This document shows positions 1 to 52,014 of a DNA stretch of 56,930 nucleotides, in pieces. The notes below the pieces were generated by a model. That model made no database searches. It was not told where the DNA came from and worked only from the letters and a program-made list of their open reading frames with translations. Origin of the DNA: a virus. A program made the position numbers and the translations under genes. Each line of letters opens with the position of its first letter. The first letter of the stretch is position 1. The stretch is taken from the IMG/VR virus record IMGVR_UViG_3300034374_008818, positions 1-56,930 of that record; one strand, written 5' to 3'.

Positions 1-14
1 TGAAGAACACAAAT

Positions 15-39
15 GAAAAAAGCCCCCAGTGAAGGGGGC
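15..39 (-). terminator. Intrinsic terminator-like hairpin after the 93-aa gene
   Basis: On the minus strand a 6-bp stem GCCCCC/GGGGGC (22-39) with a six-base loop is followed by a run of seven T. It lies 6 nt past the stop at 46. Beyond it, bases 1-14 look like the leader seen upstream of the other cassettes, so another small gene probably begins off the left edge. Confidence 0.75.
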
Positions 40-45
40 AAGGTA

Positions 46-327
46 TCAGGCAGCAGGTGCCATGGAGGGCTTAACTTCCTCCTTATCCTTAAGGAAAGGC
101 AGGTAAGAGCCAGTGGTCTGCTTGAGATGACCACCAGTGGCAAGTAAGCCAGTGGCAAGAGTGCCACCAATGACATAGCCAGGGGCTACAGCAGTAGCAA
201 TGAATGCAGCGCCACCAAAGGTAGCAACACCAGTGCCAACAGCAGCAATGGTGAGTGCATTCTGGTCAGTCAAAAAGTCAAGTGCTGCACCAGAGGAGGT
301 GTCAACAGACTTGTGAATAGCAGCCAT
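46..327 (-). CDS. Small Ala/Gly-rich membrane protein (93 aa), unknown function
   Basis: I do not recognise this protein. It opens MAAIHKSVDTSSG. The long middle, about residues 25-68, is made of Ala, Gly, Thr and Val with no charge and would form one or two membrane-spanning or glycine-zipper helices. The tail is charged (KDKEEVKPS). I start it at the ATG at 327. A longer frame opens with GTG at 366, but that extension runs through a small hairpin (353-364) and the normal leader position, as happens by chance in the other cassettes. It is the last complete gene of the leftward small-gene array. A membrane or virion-associated role is inferred only from composition. Confidence 0.7.
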   Translation of the reverse strand: MAAIHKSVDTSSGAALDFLTDQNALTIAAVGTGVATFGGAAFIATAVAPGYVIGGTLATGLLATGGHLKQTTGSYLPFLKDKEEVKPSMAPAA

Positions 328-372
328 AGAAATATACAGAGTAAGTGAACAAGCCCATAAGGGCACAAGACG

Positions 373-393
373 ACAAAGCCCCCGTTAGGGGGC
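373..393 (-). terminator. Cassette hairpin, UAAC loop
   Basis: Stem GCCCCC/GGGGGC (378-393) has loop TAAC on the minus strand and is followed by TTTGTC. It lies 7 nt past the stop of the 40-aa gene. A second smaller stem GCCC/GGGC at 353-364 follows before the next gene's start. Confidence 0.65.
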
Positions 394-399
394 GAGAGG

Positions 400-522
400 T
401 CAGATGTCACACGACAGGGGAGTGCCACGCCAAGTCCAGGAGTACCAAGCGTCACCAATGCGTGTGTAGACAAAGTTCTCAGTCAGCCAACGGTCTGCTT
501 CGAACGGTAGAGGATAGTACAT
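400..522 (-). CDS. Small acidic/aromatic protein (40 aa), unknown
   Basis: An intact 41-codon frame opens MYYPLPFEADRWL and ends CDI. It is rich in Trp and Tyr (three Trp in its second half) and has no membrane segment. It shows the standard cassette layout: leader with TATATATTC just before the ATG, stop 7 nt before a hairpin. Coding is supported by that layout, by a composition unlike random frame, and by equally small neighbours built the same way. No family is recognised. Confidence 0.6.
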   Translation of the reverse strand: MYYPLPFEADRWLTENFVYTRIGDAWYSWTWRGTPLSCDI

Positions 523-548
523 ATGAATATATAGAGAACAACAAAGGA

Positions 549-568
549 CAAAGCCCCCAATAGGGGGC
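549..568 (-). terminator. Cassette hairpin
   Basis: Stem GCCCCC/GGGGGC (553-568) with a four-base loop TATT on the minus strand is followed by TTTGTCC. It sits 11 nt past the stop at 580. Confidence 0.65.
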
Positions 569-579
569 GTATACAGCTG

Positions 580-723
580 TTAGGAGACGTCTGCCCATTC
601 AGTGATGACACCTTCAGTGTCAACAGTCTCAGGGACAGTAAATAGATCTACAGTAACAAGATCATCTGACTGATCGATCATACGTTCCAGGTATTCACGG
701 TAGGCTTCGATGAATGCAGACAT
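580..723 (-). CDS. Small acidic protein (47 aa), unknown
   Basis: A 48-codon frame opens MSAFIEAYREYLERM and continues with an acidic, beta-prone second half (VDLFTVPETVDTEGV). The first twenty residues would form an amphipathic helix. No known family is recognised. The leader (GTATATTTATAG before the ATG) matches those of neighbouring cassettes. A small acidic protein of this type could bind host protein, as early phage inhibitors often do, but nothing in the sequence shows a target. Confidence 0.6.
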   Translation of the reverse strand: MSAFIEAYREYLERMIDQSDDLVTVDLFTVPETVDTEGVITEWADVS

Positions 724-752
724 CTATAAATATACGAGGAACACTAAAGAAT

Positions 753-771
753 AAAGCCCGCGCTAGCGGGC
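753..771 (-). terminator. Cassette hairpin overlapping a stop codon
   Basis: Stem GCCCGC/GCGGGC (756-771) has loop TAGC on the minus strand and is followed by TTTATTC. The TAG in the loop is the stop codon of the 40-aa basic gene, so a ribosome terminating there would open the hairpin. Confidence 0.65.
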
Positions 772-885
772 AAGGAGTTTCCTCTTAAGAGCTTTCAAAG
801 CAGCCTTACGGGCTCTCATAGCCTGTGGCTTACGCCTTGGCTTCTGTGCTTTCTTAGAGTGATGTTGATAATTAGGGACATTCAT
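763..885 (-). CDS. Small, highly basic protein (40 aa)
   Basis: A 41-codon frame opens MNVPNYQHHSKKAQKP and continues as an Arg/Lys/Ala helix (RARKAALKALKRK). The charge suggests nucleic-acid binding; no family is recognised. Its TAG stop falls in the loop of the downstream hairpin. The same frame continues upstream to an ATG at 942 (giving MFTHYRGFLL), but that extension reads through the previous hairpin, so I start at 885. Confidence 0.6.
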   Translation of the reverse strand: MNVPNYQHHSKKAQKPRRKPQAMRARKAALKALKRKLLAR

Positions 886-915
886 ATCGATAAACGAGAA
901 GAGACACAAGATCAA

Positions 916-936
916 TAAAAACCCACGATAGTGGGT
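916..936 (-). terminator. Cassette hairpin, UAUC loop
   Basis: Stem ACCCAC/GTGGGT (921-936) has loop TATC on the minus strand and is followed by TTTTATTG. It is the rightmost hairpin before the plus-strand gene at 979. No minus-strand gene directly feeds it, so the array seems to have been interrupted here. Confidence 0.6.
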
Positions 937-978
937 AAACATAGATAGTTACAATTAATAAGTGTATTAGTTATAACT

Positions 979-2010
979 ATGCCTAGATTTGCCAATCAAC
1001 GGATTGCTAAGTTAGTTGATTATCTTAAAACGCCACACTCAGAGAGACGTATGGTAAATCAAGATGATCCATATTACTGGGGTCAATCAGGTAGAGCTTG
1101 GCGTCAAGAGCAAGATAATTTGCATAGAGAAATACAAACTGGATACCTGAGTCCAAACCACGCTAAAGCAATACTTCAGACTAAATTCGGTCTGTCTAGT
1201 AAAGAAGCCGGTATGTATGTAAAGTGGTCTTTAGATCCAGACACAAAATGGAGTAGACACGTTGGATTTGGTGTTCCGCAAGCAGAAACTTCGGAACATA
1301 TTATGAATGAGATATTGAATTCATCAGGTATTAAGACTAAATTAAACAACCAAGATGATCCTACTGCAACTGATTTAGTTCGTATGGTAGACAACGTAAA
1401 GCAGTATATTGATGTTCAAAACAGAAATACACTGCCAAATATTATTACAGGTGAAGAGATGGGGACATTAATGCCAATCCTAAATACACCTGCAGGGTTA
1501 GCATCTGAAATTTACGATAAAGCATCACCTAATGACACATTTGGAGTTATTAAACAGGAAATTCAACGTAGGTCACCATACGCTCGTCCAGGAAAAATGT
1601 TCGAGAGTAGAGAGGTTGTTGGTCAAAAGTTTGGACGTCCAAGGATGAGAAACGGGGTAGATCAGCGTAAGCCATTTAAAGAATCACACGTTAAAGATGT
1701 AATCATTGGAGGATATAATGATCCACGTGAATTCGAGGCATACTCATTAAGAAAAGGTCACGGGCCATACGATCCCATGATTCCTTCACGAGTGATAGCT
1801 CAAGATCAAGAGAAACTTAGAAATAATCTAATGGGAATGACTAAAGCTGAGTATGAGAAATTAGGAGGAGCAGTCTTAAATGATGACTATAGGAAATCGA
1901 TGGATTTGTATCTCCCCGTCAATATGATCGAGGAGATGTCAAAACCAGATACAGAATATATCGCCAAGGAGGTATTAGAAGCTTTGGATTGGGCTAAACG
2001 GAATAGTTAG
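979..2010 (+). CDS. Unknown 343-aa protein inserted in the small-gene array
   Basis: I do not recognise a family. The protein (MPRFANQRIAKLVDYL...) is hydrophilic, with no signal peptide or membrane segment. It has many short charged motifs such as ERRMVNQDDPYYWGQ and ends DWAKRNS. Its AT-leaning codons resemble the 9156-10553 virion gene more than its neighbours. It is the only plus-strand gene among minus-strand cassettes, and its 3' end overlaps the next minus-strand gene by 17 nt. Upstream is a perfect 12-bp palindrome, TAGTTATAACTA. It could be an inserted cargo gene or a virion protein; context cannot decide. Confidence 0.75.
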   Translation: MPRFANQRIAKLVDYLKTPHSERRMVNQDDPYYWGQSGRAWRQEQDNLHREIQTGYLSPNHAKAILQTKFGLSSKEAGMYVKWSLDPDTKWSRHVGFGVPQAETSEHIMNEILNSSGIKTKLNNQDDPTATDLVRMVDNVKQYIDVQNRNTLPNIITGEEMGTLMPILNTPAGLASEIYDKASPNDTFGVIKQEIQRRSPYARPGKMFESREVVGQKFGRPRMRNGVDQRKPFKESHVKDVIIGGYNDPREFEAYSLRKGHGPYDPMIPSRVIAQDQEKLRNNLMGMTKAEYEKLGGAVLNDDYRKSMDLYLPVNMIEEMSKPDTEYIAKEVLEALDWAKRNS

Positions 2011-2191
2011 CCTGAATATAATCCCAAAGAAACTGCTGCTTTTCAGTCAAGGCATCGCCATTGTCTAGCGACACACAGATGTCACCAAGGCAGTAGTTGA
2101 CAAAATCTAATACACCATACTCTTTGTCAGGCCGACGATCGGCTTGGCGAGTAAGAAACTCCTTATAAAGAGTGTCGAAATCGTAAGTCAT
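1994..2191 (-). CDS. Small acidic protein (65 aa), unknown
   Basis: The frame opens MTYDFDTLYKEFLTRQAD and ends IQANYSV, mostly helical and acidic. I start at the ATG at 2191; the longer frame to 2260 reads back through the upstream hairpin. The leader TGTTTATTTCTTACT matches other cassettes. It has no hairpin of its own on the 3' side. Instead its end overlaps the end of the plus-strand gene (convergent), consistent with an insertion that removed the original terminator. Confidence 0.65.
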   Translation of the reverse strand: MTYDFDTLYKEFLTRQADRRPDKEYGVLDFVNYCLGDICVSLDNGDALTEKQQFLWDYIQANYSV

Positions 2192-2219
2192 AGTAAGAAA
2201 TAAACAATAACACCACACG

Positions 2220-2243
2220 AAAAACTCCCCGGTAGGGGGGAGT
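2220..2243 (-). terminator. Cassette hairpin with U-run
   Basis: Stem ACTCCCC/GGGGAGT (2224-2243) is followed on the minus strand by TTTTTCG. It lies 9 nt past the stop at 2253. Confidence 0.7.
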
Positions 2244-2252
2244 CTTAGGTTA

Positions 2253-2483
2253 TCAGGCAACAGCCTGCTTCTTAAGGGTAGCCAGGCTACGGTTACGAGT
2301 GAGGGGAGTGAAACCCTTAGCGAGGAGGAAATCCTCGAAGTGAGTCATCTCATAGCCGCTACGGAAGACGTGTTGCTTACCGAAGCCATTCTTGGCAACG
2401 AAGCAGTCGTCGCTAAAGCGGATAAGACGCCAAGAGGCATTACCGCGAGTCAACACAACAGACTTCAAACCAGACATAATCAT
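2253..2483 (-). CDS. Small basic protein (74-76 aa), unknown
   Basis: The frame reads MIMSGLKSVVLTRGNASW and ends LKKQAVA. Two ATGs, at 2483 and 2477, are 6 nt apart and neither has a clear Shine-Dalgarno, so the start is uncertain by two residues. The centre (WRLIRFSDDCFVAKNGFG) alternates hydrophobic and polar residues as in a small beta sheet, and the C-terminus is a basic helix. No family is recognised. Confidence 0.65.
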   Translation of the reverse strand: MIMSGLKSVVLTRGNASWRLIRFSDDCFVAKNGFGKQHVFRSGYEMTHFEDFLLAKGFTPLTRNRSLATLKKQAVA

Positions 2484-2501
2484 AATTGATAACAACACAA
2501 A

Positions 2502-2526
2502 AGAAAAACACCCGCGTTAGCGGGTG
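2502..2526 (-). terminator. Cassette hairpin, UAAC loop
   Basis: A 7-bp stem CACCCGC/GCGGGTG (2509-2526) has loop TAAC on the minus strand and is followed by TTTTTC. It lies 13 nt past the stop at 2540. Confidence 0.7.
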
Positions 2527-2539
2527 AAGGGGTATACAA

Positions 2540-2761
2540 TTAAGGGATACGGGGGTAGACAGCCTTCCACAAACGAGAGGAAGCCTTACAAGTCTTATCG
2601 GTAATATAGTAAAAACCGCAGCCTATGCCATACACACAGCCGACAAAAGGAAATAGAATCCATCCACCAAGAAGGAGGATAGGAGAGGAAGCAAATAGAA
2701 TTAGCAAGAGGGTTCCAGCCAATTCCTTCTTGCTTGTCTTAGGCTGAATAGAAGTAGTCAT
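2540..2761 (-). CDS. Small two-helix membrane protein (73 aa)
   Basis: Starting at ATG 2761, the protein opens MTTSIQPKTSKKELAG. It has two adjacent hydrophobic stretches, about residues 15-31 and 34-52, the second rich in Gly, Cys and aromatic residues. It ends in a Lys/Arg-containing tail. Basic residues before the first helix suggest a cytoplasmic N-terminus. It could alter the host membrane early in infection; nothing ties it to lysis, whose genes lie elsewhere. No family is recognised. Confidence 0.65.
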   Translation of the reverse strand: MTTSIQPKTSKKELAGTLLLILFASSPILLLGGWILFPFVGCVYGIGCGFYYITDKTCKASSRLWKAVYPRIP

Positions 2762-2786
2762 AAAGTTAATTGATAACACTAAAGAA

Positions 2787-2806
2787 ATAAACCCACGATA
2801 GTGGGT
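2787..2806 (-). terminator. Cassette hairpin, UAUC loop
   Basis: Stem ACCCAC/GTGGGT (2791-2806) has loop TATC on the minus strand and is followed by TTTATTTC. It forms the downstream boundary of the gene-less repeat slot 2810-2920. Confidence 0.65.
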
Positions 2807-2809
2807 GAA

Positions 2810-2912
2810 AGTAGGTCGCTTACCGGGAAGGAGAAGTAGGTCGCTTCTAGGTCGCTTAATGGTAGGGGGGGGGTAGTAGGTCGCTTACCGGGAAGGAGAA
2901 GTAGGTCGCTTA
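2810..2912. repeat. Array A: five copies of TAGGTCGCTT, including a 37-bp direct repeat
   Basis: Perfect TAGGTCGCTT units start at 2812, 2837, 2848, 2877 and 2902. Bases 2810-2846 are repeated exactly at 2875-2911. The spacer inside each 37-bp copy contains GGGAAGGAGAAG, with a C9 tract (minus strand) between them. The slot is bounded by hairpins on both sides and has no usable reading frame; the minus-strand reading GTAAGCGACC places TAA stops. If transcribed leftward it would give an RNA carrying repeated AAGCGACCUA. Confidence 0.85.
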
Positions 2913-2921
2913 CCAAGACAT

Positions 2922-2946
2922 AAAAAAAAACCCCTGGGGAGGGGTT
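2922..2946 (-). terminator. Strong intrinsic terminator
   Basis: Stem AACCCC/GGGGTT (2929-2946) is followed on the minus strand by a run of about nine T. It lies 5 nt past the stop of the 47-aa gene. It has the longest T-run in the array and separates that gene from repeat array A. Confidence 0.8.
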
Positions 2947-2951
2947 ATGAG

Positions 2952-3095
2952 TCACTGATGCCAGCGTCGATGATAGTTATCCATAGTAACGAGATTAACG
3001 GCTAGAGACATACCTGCAGTTGGTAGAATTAAAGACGCTGCTATCATCTGATATAACACTAGCTTGCATAAATCATACTTCTGAGAGTCAGACAT
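2952..3095 (-). CDS. Small membrane-associated protein (47 aa), paralogue of 3274-3462
   Basis: The 48-codon frame opens MSDSQKYDLCKLVLYQM. A hydrophobic helix spans about residues 12-38 and contains LPTAGMSLAVN, and the protein ends MDNYHRRWHQ. The 62-aa protein encoded at 3274-3462 has the same core (FPTAGMSLAIN, YDNYQRRWYPE), so the two are duplicates within the array separated by repeat array B. The helix followed by a basic aromatic tail suggests a peripheral or single-pass membrane protein; function unknown. Confidence 0.75.
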   Translation of the reverse strand: MSDSQKYDLCKLVLYQMIAASLILPTAGMSLAVNLVTMDNYHRRWHQ

Positions 3096-3123
3096 ATTAA
3101 AGTTATAAACTACATCAATGGAT

Positions 3124-3142
3124 AAAACCCGCGATAGCGGGT
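3124..3142 (-). terminator. Cassette hairpin, UAUC loop
   Basis: Stem ACCCGC/GCGGGT (3127-3142) has loop TATC on the minus strand and is followed by TTTATC. It forms the 3' boundary of repeat slot B. Confidence 0.65.
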
Positions 3143-3144
3143 GA

Positions 3145-3215
3145 TACGTCGCTTGCGAGTCAGTTAGTATGTCGCTTGTAGGTCGCTTAAAGGAAAGAAG
3201 AAGAGTAGGTCGCTT
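3145..3215. repeat. Array B: four TAGGTCGCTT-type units
   Basis: Units start at 3145 (TACGTCGCTT), 3168 (TATGTCGCTT), 3179 and 3206 (both perfect). The last unit is followed by AGCAAGACA, matching ACCAAGACA after the last unit of array A. Like array A it lies between two hairpins where a gene would be expected and contains no plausible frame. The purine spacer AAAGGAAAGAAGAAG echoes the GGAAGGAGAAG spacer of array A. Confidence 0.8.
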
Positions 3216-3233
3216 AGCAAGACACAGTAGTTT

Positions 3234-3252
3234 AAAACCCCCGTTAGGGGGT
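3234..3252 (-). terminator. Cassette hairpin, UAAC loop
   Basis: Stem ACCCCC/GGGGGT (3237-3252) has loop TAAC on the minus strand and is followed by TTTAAAC. It lies about 21 nt past the stop of the 62-aa gene. Confidence 0.6.
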
Positions 3253-3273
3253 GGTAGTCAGTAGTTAATTAAA

Positions 3274-3462
3274 TCAGTCGATGTCACACCAAGTAATGGA
3301 TTCGGGATACCAACGACGTTGATAGTTGTCGTAAGACATACAGTTAATAGCGAGTGACATACCAGCAGTAGGGAATGCTAACGCTAAGCCAGCAATTTGC
3401 TTTCCAACTAACATAAGAGTGTCTGCTTGTTGCGGAGTCATAGATTCAATGTAATTTGACAT
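3274..3462 (-). CDS. Small membrane-associated protein (62 aa), paralogue of 2952-3095
   Basis: It opens MSNYIESMTPQQADTLML. A hydrophobic helix spans about residues 17-42 with the shared core FPTAGMSLAIN, followed by YDNYQRRWYPES. It differs from its 47-aa paralogue by a longer acidic tail (WCDID) and a longer N-terminus. The start is 12 nt from the upstream hairpin, the shortest leader in the array, which leaves no room for a separate promoter downstream of that hairpin. Function unknown. Confidence 0.75.
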   Translation of the reverse strand: MSNYIESMTPQQADTLMLVGKQIAGLALAFPTAGMSLAINCMSYDNYQRRWYPESITWCDID

Positions 3463-3470
3463 AAAAGAAA

Positions 3471-3489
3471 TAAACCCGCGTTAGCGGGT
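3471..3489 (-). terminator. Cassette hairpin, UAAC loop
   Basis: Stem ACCCGC/GCGGGT (3474-3489) has loop TAAC on the minus strand and is followed by TTTATTTC. The next start codon follows only 12 nt later. Confidence 0.65.
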
Positions 3490-3496
3490 GAAGTAA

Positions 3497-3664
3497 TTAT
3501 CGGAAGTCGCAGTAACGATAGGGTGAGTCATAGTCAGTCACACGGATTATGTCAGAGTAGTTACGTAACTCATTAACCATTGATGCATACTCATTAGCAT
3601 CATAAGTGTCATAGCCGTGGTTGTAATCACACTCACCTTCACGGATAATGTCGTAATCATTCAT
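3497..3664 (-). CDS. Small acidic, Tyr/Asp-rich protein (55 aa)
   Basis: A 56-codon frame opens MNDYDIIREGECDYNHG and ends PYRYCDFR. It contains eight Tyr and nine Asp and is strongly acidic with no membrane segment. It is the first gene of the leftward array, next to the control region, so it may be expressed first. The acidic, aromatic make-up is reminiscent of DNA-mimic or host-enzyme-binding phage peptides, but that is a guess from composition. Confidence 0.6.
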   Translation of the reverse strand: MNDYDIIREGECDYNHGYDTYDANEYASMVNELRNYSDIIRVTDYDSPYRYCDFR

Positions 3665-3695
3665 AGTAAAATTACAAATTACACAGTAATCGACA

Positions 3696-3711
3696 CCACT
3701 CGATAGAGTGG
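3696..3711 (-). other. Hairpin without U-run upstream of the array
   Basis: CCACTC/GAGTGG has the same TATC loop (minus strand) as several cassette hairpins but no T-run follows, so it is unlikely to terminate by itself. It lies 32 nt upstream of the first cassette start and would be at the 5' end of the leftward transcript. Confidence 0.5.
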
Positions 3712-4132
3712 GGGTAGGGGTGGTAGGAGCTGATACCCTCAGCGAGACACAGGGTTACTTAAGATACGCATAAGTCACGACAGGGGTGTGTAACTTCTGA
3801 CGATAGGGGGAGGTAACCTGTGGTTACTGAAGTGAGCCCGAGTACGAAACACACGATACGAATTCGTATCACCACAAAAGATTAATACGAAAGATAATTA
3901 TGTAGTGAAGAATTCGAGTGTGTTAACTCGGGTGAACAAAGAAACAAATGTGAAACTTGAGTGAAACGAAAGTTGAACAACGATTGTTATACACTTCAGC
4001 CGAACACAAAGGCTCACAAACAAACGCTTCACTTCAATTAACATCTGACTTCACAGTAGTTATTTTTTTTGTTTGAGCCCCAGTTCGGGTACAGAGGGTA
4101 TTAAACGTGTCTAAAATTTTGTACCATTTTTT

Positions 4133-4155
4133 ACCCTCTATAGGGGGTTTTTAGT
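4133..4155 (+). terminator. Plus-strand terminator-like hairpin inside the control region
   Basis: Stem ACCCTC/GGGGGT with TATA loop is followed by TTTTT. As no plus-strand gene precedes it, it would end a rightward non-coding transcript from the 3.8-4.1 kb stretch or block read-through into the late module. Confidence 0.5.
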
Positions 4156-4182
4156 ACCCCAAAAGTCGCCACTTTGGGCAAT

Positions 4183-4277
4183 AAGCAGGGCTCCAGTATG
4201 TAGTGTGATTATCTTATTGAGAATCAATAGCAATAGAGGCTGTGATACCCTAGTAAAAGCACCTACTCTCCCTGCTT
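4183..4277 (+). other. Possible structured RNA closed by a long-range stem
   Basis: AAGCAGGG (4183-4190) can pair perfectly with CCCTGCTT (4270-4277), enclosing about 80 nt with a small internal hairpin ATTG-AGAAT-CAAT. It lies just upstream of the 135-bp promoter module. Strand and transcription are not shown by sequence. Confidence 0.3.
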
Positions 4278-4304
4278 GTATACGTTGGTTTTAGAGTCGA
4301 ACGC

Positions 4305-4440
4305 AAAACTACGCTAACTACGGTAGTTTTCTATATACCCCTTTTTTAATTCACCCCTAGCCCCTACTAGTGAATTTTTTTAGAAAGGGTTAGATAAGAA
4401 GGTAGTTAGTGTAGCATCGTAGTTTTTGTAGAATAAATAG
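4305..4440 (+). promoter_or_regulatory. Promoter-like module, copy A (before the virion operon)
   Basis: This stretch aligns over its length with 49327-49461. Shared pieces, in order: AACTAC-N-GTAGTT dyad, CTATATACC, an AT-rich stem region, AGAAAGGGTTAGA, GTAGTTAG then GTAGCA and CGTAGT, and TAGAATA (4429-4435). It ends 22 nt before the first virion gene. Being found upstream of two different operons, with a -10-like TAGAAT at the same relative place, suggests a shared phage promoter with upstream binding sites. Confidence 0.75.
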
Positions 4441-4461
4441 AACATCAACATTTAAAAAATA

Positions 4462-5907
4462 ATGGGCAAGTTTACTCCGGGTTATATCACTGTCCCAGGT
4501 AAAGGTAGAAGGTATCGTGATGCTGATGGTAATTATTTCGGCATTGAGCCTGGATTTGGCATGCAGACTATGTTGGAATTTTTCGATCCAACTGTTAAAG
4601 GTCAACCAAGCTACGGTGCCTATCAAAACTCAACACCGAGCACATCGCGTCGTTATAATGATTCTGAAAGTAAAATTAAAGCGATTCAATCAAACGGTTC
4701 AGCACTGATCAACCGTTCTGGTGTCACTCCTGTAGATGGAAGTTTTCGTAAAGCTGTAGAGCAAGGTACTGACGGTAATCGCCCTTCAAGTGCTGGTAAC
4801 GCTGGTTCCGGCAACGCTGGTTCCAGTAACGGTGGTTCCGGTAACGGTGGTTCCGGTAACGGTAAGGGGTCTGCACCAGCACCTTCAAGCAACGGTGGCA
4901 ACACTGGACGTAACGACACTCGTGTAAATAACGGTGGAGTAGTTCAATCTGGCACCAACATGGGTCCAAAGCTTCCCACGTTAGATGAACTGAGTGCTTA
5001 TGCAGGTGCACCAGTTGCTAACTTTGCTGGCCCATCGTTCCCCACACAGCCAGCAACCAACCGCATCACTGCTTCTTACCCCAACACCACAGGTGATGGT
5101 ATGGAAACAGTGGACCTTGGCGGGGGCAATATCTACAAAGCTGACCGCAATGGTCGCATCATCGGTGCAGCAAACGGAAATGAGGGCGATAAGTTCGAAG
5201 GTTCCCAGCTGCCTACTACAAAAGGCAACCCATTTAGCGGAAATCCTGCCGATAGTCCGCAGTTTAGGTCCGATTTACCCGGAATTATTGGTCAATCCTA
5301 CGACAGTTACCACACTAATAACGGATTAAACGCCGCATCCAACGTTTCAGGTAAAGGAACCCCCGCATTTAGCGGCAAAGAAGAGCAAATTAAGGGCGCA
5401 TCTAGCCGTCCTAGCGGCTCATTAGCTGATTCTCTTAGCGATGGAAGCGATTTACGGTTCAATTCCGCCAATTACAAGCCATCTGAAGGCTTCAAGGTGT
5501 CTGATGGTGCATCATCCTCGGAAGAAATGCGTCGTCGGCGTGCATTCTTAGATGCACCGGACAGTATGAGCGGAATCAAGCGCGTTGAAGCTGGTCTTGG
5601 CTACCAAGTTCTTAATGGTAAAGCATATATGAACATCAATGGTGAGATCAAAGAGGGTGATGTAAGCGAAGTCCGTAAAATCAAGAATGCTGCACCAGGT
5701 CAAGCGCAAGGATTGAAGGATGCTTACGTTGAATCCATTATAGGCAAGACTAAAGAGAACAATACTTCCGAGAATCCTCCGTTAACTCCAGCAGCTGCCC
5801 AAAATCCCAGTGTTCAAAACAATGAACTCTCGCCATTTATACAATCACTGCCTGGCAACAAGAAATCAAACCTTCCAAACCAGGTAATGGGCATCGGAAG
5901 TATCTGA
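4462..5907 (+). CDS. Low-complexity virion-type protein (481 aa)
   Basis: First gene after promoter module A; no known family is recognised. The N-terminus (MGKFTPGYITVPGKGRRYRD) precedes a Gly/Asn/Ser-rich linker, about residues 115-150, with GGSGN repeats. Ser/Pro/Asn-rich sequence follows to the end (VMGIGSI). Such disordered, uncharged composition is typical of virion-associated or tail-tip proteins. A basic stretch EEMRRRRAF lies near residue 355. The gene is separated by 53 nt from the 750-aa gene that continues the operon. Confidence 0.75.
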   Translation: MGKFTPGYITVPGKGRRYRDADGNYFGIEPGFGMQTMLEFFDPTVKGQPSYGAYQNSTPSTSRRYNDSESKIKAIQSNGSALINRSGVTPVDGSFRKAVEQGTDGNRPSSAGNAGSGNAGSSNGGSGNGGSGNGKGSAPAPSSNGGNTGRNDTRVNNGGVVQSGTNMGPKLPTLDELSAYAGAPVANFAGPSFPTQPATNRITASYPNTTGDGMETVDLGGGNIYKADRNGRIIGAANGNEGDKFEGSQLPTTKGNPFSGNPADSPQFRSDLPGIIGQSYDSYHTNNGLNAASNVSGKGTPAFSGKEEQIKGASSRPSGSLADSLSDGSDLRFNSANYKPSEGFKVSDGASSSEEMRRRRAFLDAPDSMSGIKRVEAGLGYQVLNGKAYMNINGEIKEGDVSEVRKIKNAAPGQAQGLKDAYVESIIGKTKENNTSENPPLTPAAAQNPSVQNNELSPFIQSLPGNKKSNLPNQVMGIGSI

Positions 5908-20733: not shown

Positions 20734-21672
20734 ATGTCGCAACCAAAGATTTCAGGTGACTCAGTTCGTGCTTATCTACGTGATATCGGACGCATTCCAC
20801 TTCTAGAGCACGATGAAGAGATTCTCTTGGGTCGTCAAGTTCAGCGGTTAATGGAAATCAAAGAACAGAAAGAATCCCTTAACCTTGATAATGAAGGGTT
20901 AGCTGCCGCTAGTGATATCACATTAAAACAACTTAAGCGGGAGATTCGTGAAGGTGAGAAAGCCAAAGACAAGATGGTCACGGCAAACTTACGGCTCGTC
21001 GTTTCTGTGGCGAAGAAATACACTAAACGAAATATGGAACTCCTCGACATTATTCAAGAGGGGACCATTGGCCTCGTTCGCGGTGTGGAAAAATTTGATC
21101 CGGGTCGTGGTTATAAGTTTAGTACTTACGCTTATTGGTGGATTCGTCAAGGGATCACTCGCGCAATCGCTGAAAAATCGAGGGCGATTAGGTTACCAAT
21201 TCACGTTACAGAAAACCTCAACCGCCTTAAGAAAGCCCAGCGTGAACTGAGTCAGATGAATGGTTATATGCCAAGCATCCATCAACTCTCAGATTACCTT
21301 GAACTGTCAGTAGATGACATCAAAGATTTAATGTGTAAAGCACGTCAGCCTACATCTCTAGAAATCAAGATTGGAGAAAATCGTGACACAGCGCTGATTG
21401 ATCTTTTAGAAGATGAGACACAGCTTCCAGAGATGCTGCTTGAAAAAGCTTTGATCAAGGAAGATATGCACAGTATGATTCGAGATTTACCTGACCTGCA
21501 AGCAGCAGTAATCAGTATGCGGTATGGCATTGGTGATGAGCTGTTTGAAGCTATGTCAATGACAGCCATTGGCCAAGTATTAAATATGAGCCGTGACAGA
21601 GTGCGTACTCTGGAGCATAAAGCAATTAAAACTTTAAAAGAGCGTGGTGATTTAGTGAGTGAATATCTTTAA
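20734..21672 (+). CDS. RNA polymerase sigma factor, cyanobacterial primary/group 2 type (312 aa)
   Basis: Region 1.2 is DSVRAYLRDIGRIPLLEHDE. Region 2 includes KMVTANLRLVVSVAKKY, LLDIIQEGTIGLVRGVEKFD and FSTYAYWWIRQGITRAI. Region 3 starts RLPIHVTENLNRLKKAQREL. Region 4 carries a helix-turn-helix AIGQVLNMSRDRVRTLEHKA. It is as complete as host sigma-70 group 2 factors and looks acquired from a cyanobacterium. It lies inside the structural operon, between scaffold and capsid genes. It probably redirects host RNA polymerase to phage promoters (inference). Confidence 0.93.
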   Translation: MSQPKISGDSVRAYLRDIGRIPLLEHDEEILLGRQVQRLMEIKEQKESLNLDNEGLAAASDITLKQLKREIREGEKAKDKMVTANLRLVVSVAKKYTKRNMELLDIIQEGTIGLVRGVEKFDPGRGYKFSTYAYWWIRQGITRAIAEKSRAIRLPIHVTENLNRLKKAQRELSQMNGYMPSIHQLSDYLELSVDDIKDLMCKARQPTSLEIKIGENRDTALIDLLEDETQLPEMLLEKALIKEDMHSMIRDLPDLQAAVISMRYGIGDELFEAMSMTAIGQVLNMSRDRVRTLEHKAIKTLKERGDLVSEYL

Positions 21673-51829: not shown

Positions 51830-52014
51830 TTGGAAACCTCCTAGTGTTAGAAAACTTCCCGTTCCTTCAGCCCTGTCTGGCTTACTTGCGTCCCGAAGGA
51901 TGAACGTACTTACTATTAATGTAGCTATTTATACAAGTTCACGGCGAACTTTTTGTAGGTCTTTACTTTCTATTCTTATAAACAGTGGTCTCACTTCGTA
52001 AACGATTGAGCTCT
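51830..52014. other. Intergenic with 3'-end duplication of the next gene
   Basis: Bases about 51960-52014 repeat, at about 55 bp spacing, the last bases of the 343-aa gene; the copy reads TEELNRLRSETTVYKNRK in a shifted frame against TEELNRLRNETFEYKNGRY. The rest (51830-51960) is an AT-rich leader of the DUF4278-like gene with no gene visible. Confidence 0.6.

Follow-up and report, generated by a model that had tools for sequence, protein, structure and literature searches.

Two gene-less cassettes with a conserved 10-nt motif in a virus related to Synechococcus phage S-EIV1

Several described systems are built from short repeated motifs. The CsrB/RsmZ and CrcZ-type RNAs are short non-coding RNAs that end in a terminator and carry several short binding motifs joined by irregular linkers. 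In the CsrB/RsmZ type the motif is a repeated GGA located in loops. In the type III toxin-antitoxin loci ToxIN, CptIN and TenpIN a repeat RNA is followed by a terminator and a small gene for an endoribonuclease toxin, and the antitoxin RNA is made of near-identical tandem repeats of about 24-48 nt that form pseudoknots. In CRISPR arrays, repeats of about 23-47 bp alternate with spacers that hardly vary in length. At the level of DNA, the iterons of plasmid and phage origins repeat a short non-palindromic motif in direct orientation close to a non-coding region. They are bound by an initiator protein and have helical-turn spacing, an adjoining AT-rich stretch and DnaA boxes. The stoperators of mycobacteriophages are short asymmetric sites that lie in one orientation between phage genes and are bound by the phage repressor. 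Stoperators have also been mentioned for Nostoc phages (PMC4916379).

Here, we analyze two arrays of a 10-nt motif in the 56,930-bp record of an uncultivated virus, the whole of which is referred to as the window. The nearest cultured relative is Synechococcus phage S-EIV1 (KJ410740) with 56% amino acid identity in TerL, and the next cultured phages share about 25% or less as judged by terminase. S-EIV1 resembles the window in that small leftward genes lie ahead of the structural genes, but it has neither the array nor detected hairpin-plus-T-run boundaries between its cassettes. In the window, about 800 bp without cassette genes (3665-4461) separate the leftward cassettes from the rightward structural genes, and this stretch is likely a control or origin region. 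The arrays fill two slots among the cassettes, and the genes, hairpins and arrays around them are listed here in leftward order:

3274..3462, minus strand: g1, upstream of slot B; 62 aa, or 55 aa from a second ATG that matches the cassette spacing; paralogue of g2
3237..3252, minus strand: hairpin ACCCCCTAACGGGGGT, which closes the upstream gene and opens slot B; TAAC tetraloop, T-run, TGT at positions 13-15 after the stem
3145..3215, minus strand: array B, with AAGCGACCTA twice, AAGCGACATA and AAGCGACGTA; repeat-to-repeat distances 27, 11, 23
3127..3142, minus strand: terminator-like hairpin ACCCGCTATCGCGGGT followed by TTTTAT, which closes slot B and doubles as the opening element of the next gene
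2952..3095, minus strand: g2, upstream of slot A; 47 aa; 50% amino acid identity to g1 over 42 residues
2929..2946, minus strand: hairpin AACCCCTCCCCAGGGGTT with T-run, which opens slot A; TGTCTTG nearer to the stem by about 4 nt than the consensus spacing
2812..2911, minus strand: array A, with five exact AAGCGACCTA; repeat-to-repeat distances 25, 29, 11, 25
2791..2806, minus strand: terminator-like hairpin ACCCACTATCGTGGGT followed by TTTATT, which closes slot A; compensatory G-C/A-T change in the stem relative to slot B
2540..2761, minus strand: g3, downstream of slot A; small hydrophobic membrane-like protein of no confident family

The motif reads AAGCGACCTA on the minus strand and TAGGTCGCTT on the plus strand, where exact copies lie at 2812, 2837, 2848, 2877, 2902, 3179 and 3206 and copies with one mismatch at 3145 (TACG...) and 3168 (TATG...). 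The sequence-only reading had described nine units, seven of them exact, in two slots, and all were found again, far above the shuffle expectation. The whole window holds 11 matches to TAGGTCGCTT with at most one mismatch against a shuffle mean of 2.78, a number reached in 0 of 100 shuffles; two of the 11 are isolated and lie outside both arrays. Across 1000 shuffled stretches of 2 kb no 10-mer had more than three copies, compared with seven exact copies here. The exact 37-bp duplication reported within array A is likewise present (2810-2846 equals 2875-2911). All nine copies are oriented as the cassette transcript, and the motif sites are confined to two slots of transcribed appearance, with none preceding other genes. 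Both variants in array B differ at repeat position 8, the only position that varies, which suggests AAGCGAC(N)TA as the working motif.

The slots resemble sponge RNAs in general in that each is a non-coding unit with a terminator at its end and repeats one short motif several times. In contrast to CsrB/RsmZ and CrcZ, AAGCGACNTA contains neither GGA nor the A-rich Hfq/Crc signature, the arrays are phage-borne, and Rfam gave no match above the gathering score at the slots; the lack of GGA speaks against a sponge of the CsrB/RsmZ type. A CRISPR array was rejected, with 10-bp repeats and spacers of 1, 13, 15, 17 and 19 nt. Elsewhere in the virus genome a glutamine riboswitch aptamer was found (window 51856-51908, minus strand; Rfam RF01739, 46 bits).

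The minus strand of 1-3700 has a GC-rich hairpin and a T-run ahead of each small gene. The hairpins that were said to bound the slots are borne out by 18 terminator-like minus-strand sites in 1-4500, compared with 2.8 in shuffles. The element between cassettes consists of a 6-bp GC-rich stem, a UAAC or UAUC loop, a T-run and TGT(T)CTTT at a fixed distance of 12 nt. It was found on the minus strand of the window at 377-3705, in L094, L095, L097, L098 and L100, which are S-EIV1-like relatives with the same cassette layout, and in L101. The loop is TAAC or TATC in 52 of 61 elements, and positions 13-15 after the stem are T in 59, G in 55 and T in 49 of the 61, followed mostly by TCTTT. In the cassette elements the start codon usually lies 30-35 nt past the stem. 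Covariation was assessed in 40 elements that were picked without any pairing requirement. At each of the six stem positions 38-39 of these form Watson-Crick pairs, with several pair types, and this strong covariation argues that the cassette hairpin acts as RNA. The element may serve as terminator and promoter in one, or as a site of RNA processing. The virus encodes a sigma-70 factor with regions 1.2, 2, 3 and 4 (window 20734-21672, plus strand), which is a candidate reader of the element. Most of the leftward cassette genes (window 46-3664, minus strand) are pyrimidine-rich on the coding strand, while the other minus-strand genes checked show the opposite.

Both slots are cassettes in which repeats replace the gene, as had been proposed. 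Their start element and terminators are the same as in gene cassettes, and both arrays begin at the place of the leader and ORF in other cassettes. The start element of slot B is in register, and the hairpin of slot A has another loop in addition to its displaced TGT. The claim that no frame is open had to be corrected, since array A lies within a GTG ORF of 58 aa (2955-2779). This frame begins just before the upstream gene ends, crosses the hairpins on both sides, has no cassette-type start and is not kept in array B (18 aa). The slots are therefore effectively non-coding, and to this extent the claim stands. In eight further cassette-bearing loci that were found via the element no gene-less repeat slots were seen, and the short slots of these loci mostly hold ORFs of 29-37 aa.

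The two slots are likely the paralogous halves of a duplicated unit of gene, terminator, array and terminator. In addition to the paralogous g1 and g2 and the closing hairpins with their compensatory change, both arrays open with TGTCTTG(C/G)TAAGCGACCTACT and close with TCACCC(G/A)CTATCG(C/T)GGGTTT. Since these flanks are shared, duplication of the unit as a whole is likely, and from this comparison we infer that gene and array were duplicated together. Array B aligns to the last four repeats of array A (distances 27/11/23 and 29/11/25), and the pair of repeats with the 1-nt spacer is kept together with the order of spacings. The aligned repeats are identical at 38 of 40 bases, while the third codon positions of g1 and g2 are saturated (13 of 42 identical; four-fold-type residues agree in 4 of 12) and the spacers have diverged to about half identity. 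This difference suggests selection on the motif. Selection is also simpler than gene conversion, because conversion would homogenise the spacers too. If the unit was duplicated whole, the repeat has been held constant while all else diverged. This comparison, drawn from one duplication, is the strongest sign of function.

How far the array extends beyond this genome was addressed by several searches. Besides two unrelated tandem arrays, the scan of IMG/VR for motif pairs returned a single contig, which is near-identical to the window. This contig, 3300007346_000050, is 99.9% identical over 14.6 kb and has the same arrays. Searches for relatives via the flanking proteins and a g1/g2 alignment found nothing beyond this contig, and S-EIV1 and the long S-EIV1-like relatives have no clustered repeat of the array type. 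A TGTAGGTG cluster in L281 was rejected as a homologue of the array, as it codes for a proline-threonine stretch. The scan for heptamer triples gave, among the matches listed, mainly coding repeats and CAAGC-type tandem repeats. The genome scan yielded 34 pairs, among them a palindrome in Streptomyces, tandem repeats that are unrelated, and pairs that stand alone, the sole clear cyanobacterial match being one isolated pair in Limnothrix. The spaced ACCTAGGTCGCTT pair common to the Streptomyces sequences L112, L116, L118, L124, L125, L134 and L135 (a GACCTAGGTC palindrome) seems to be a conserved site that has no relation to the motif of the phage. The 12-mer TAAGCGACCTAC had 40 matches in 242 cyanobacterial genomes, fewer than its reversed control and thus without enrichment; the 20 matches that were read lie mostly within long open frames and share no common locus except for one homologous pair. 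A motif search in hosts and cyanophages, which had been put forward as a check of the decoy idea, gave it no support: no host, and no examined relative beyond the 99.9% identical contig, carries the array, and the motif is not enriched in cyanobacteria.

The sequence-only reading had also named missing repeat conservation in relatives as a finding that would speak against it. Judged by terminase, there are many S-EIV1-like contigs at greater distance, but these relatives lack the flanking genes, apart from one (g7), as well as the array, and the repeats are conserved between the two paralogous units of the genome. On this count the proposal is neither refuted nor clearly upheld, and overall it is supported in part. 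No protein family identifies the flanking genes. What we observe directly is the anatomy of the cassettes, their non-coding content and the conservation of the repeat between the unit copies, and the two non-coding cassettes with their conserved 10-nt motif are a real, lineage-specific feature.

Judged from sequence, the motif probably serves the virus for binding, with a short RNA as its most likely carrier. A short non-coding RNA with multiple putative binding sites is the best reading, although we hold it tentatively, and regulator sites in DNA and neutral repeats follow close behind. The RNA reading is favoured because each array is preceded by a cassette start element and followed by a terminator, every copy is in sense orientation and array B is less structured than its shuffles. 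Each slot would be a non-coding cassette that consists of a hairpin, a T-run, a TGTTCTTT-like box, the AAGCGAC(N)TA array and a terminator. Transcription would yield a short RNA of about 75-140 nt with 4-5 copies of the 10-nt site and CU-rich linkers. The sites might bind a protein or RNA made by the host or the phage, and by analogy to multi-site sponge RNAs the bound partner might be titrated or recruited. The more specific proposal of duplicated, terminator-bounded decoy RNAs, whose 4-5 single-strand AAGCGACNTA sites would, in the infected cell, titrate an RNA-binding protein or a small RNA of the host, seems unlikely to us.

Two supporting arguments of the original proposal were confirmed in part. 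The spacers are CU-rich as described, with a minus-strand purine fraction of 0.38 in slot A and 0.44 in slot B. This is partly local composition, since most neighbouring cassette genes are pyrimidine-rich on the minus strand too (purine fraction 0.40-0.50). The repeats had also been called unpaired. This agrees with the RNA of array B, which is less structured than 200 of 200 shuffles (z +2.2), but array A folds like its shuffles (z +0.5) and in the array RNA the repeats are no more accessible than the spacers. Overall the RNA is no more than moderately unstructured.

Instead of an RNA, the motif might act as double-stranded DNA, either bound by a phage regulator (an operator cluster, or stoperator-like roadblocks between cassettes) or as iterons for a replication initiator. 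We regard this as a doubtful but serious alternative. The non-palindromic direct repeats in one orientation within short intergenic intervals would suit it, as would the position of the arrays near the non-coding 3665-4461 region and the beginning of the leftward cassettes, and the conservation between the two units fits DNA as well as RNA. However, mycobacteriophage stoperators are dispersed over the genome, whereas this motif is clustered inside two transcribed-looking slots and is not placed ahead of other genes. The arrays fit an iteron origin poorly: the distances of 11, 23, 25, 27 and 29 bp are irregular and mostly not multiples of a helical turn, the 100-bp stretch that covers the bulk of array A has the lowest AT content in its neighbourhood (44% AT), and DnaA-box-like sites occur only far from the arrays.

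To a similar degree we doubt that the slots are neutral or decayed filler, in which a gene was lost and the 10-mer spread by short tandem duplications without function. The exact 37-bp duplication looks like recent growth by slippage, and the array is limited to one virus lineage. Tandem arrays of TAGGTCGCTT are found in scattered bacteria, and plain AAGCGAC-type tandem arrays in the unrelated viral contigs L001 (8059-8128, period 9, with GGCTCCAAGAGGCGAGCTGAGC copies on both flanks) and L003 (880-985, periods 7/18). Drift alone would not readily leave the repeats near-identical beside diverged spacers and third codon positions, with the 1-nt-spacer pair and the spacing order preserved. To our knowledge, compact phage genomes seldom retain two terminator-bounded empty cassettes, which also counts against filler.

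A type III toxin-antitoxin-like pair, with array A serving g3 and array B serving g2, is very improbable. The order of repeats, terminator and small gene is that of the type III systems, but terminator and gene follow each other in every other cassette too, without repeats. The 10-nt repeat with its irregular spacers of 1-19 nt gives no pseudoknot-sized unit, the array RNA is not more structured than shuffles, and neither g2 nor g3 matches a toxin family, ToxN, CptN and TenpN included, in Pfam, PHROGs or PADLOC. Least credible of all are small peptides, be they SDL-rich frames from TTG or MSW*/MSC* mini-ORFs. In their favour, array A is covered by an open frame and a TTG-x-S-D-L-L can be read in one frame of both slots. 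However, with spacings of 25/29/11/25 the frame differs from repeat to repeat, it ends after 18 aa in B and continues into the terminator in A, and the mini-ORFs take their ATG/GTG from the TGT of the cassette element, a TGT that is found in gene cassettes too, where the ORF begins at a later point.

Non-coding RNAs of cyanophages are scarcely catalogued. If the reading as a multi-site RNA is true, the two slots would be a clean example of such an RNA made by a phage and would offer a simple handle on a host regulator. It would also mean that a repeat RNA can occupy the ORF slot of a cassette and that its repeat stays conserved through a duplication that has reached saturation. Even without the RNA reading, the hairpin-TGTTCTTT element is a defined gene-expression signal in the widespread S-EIV1-like group.
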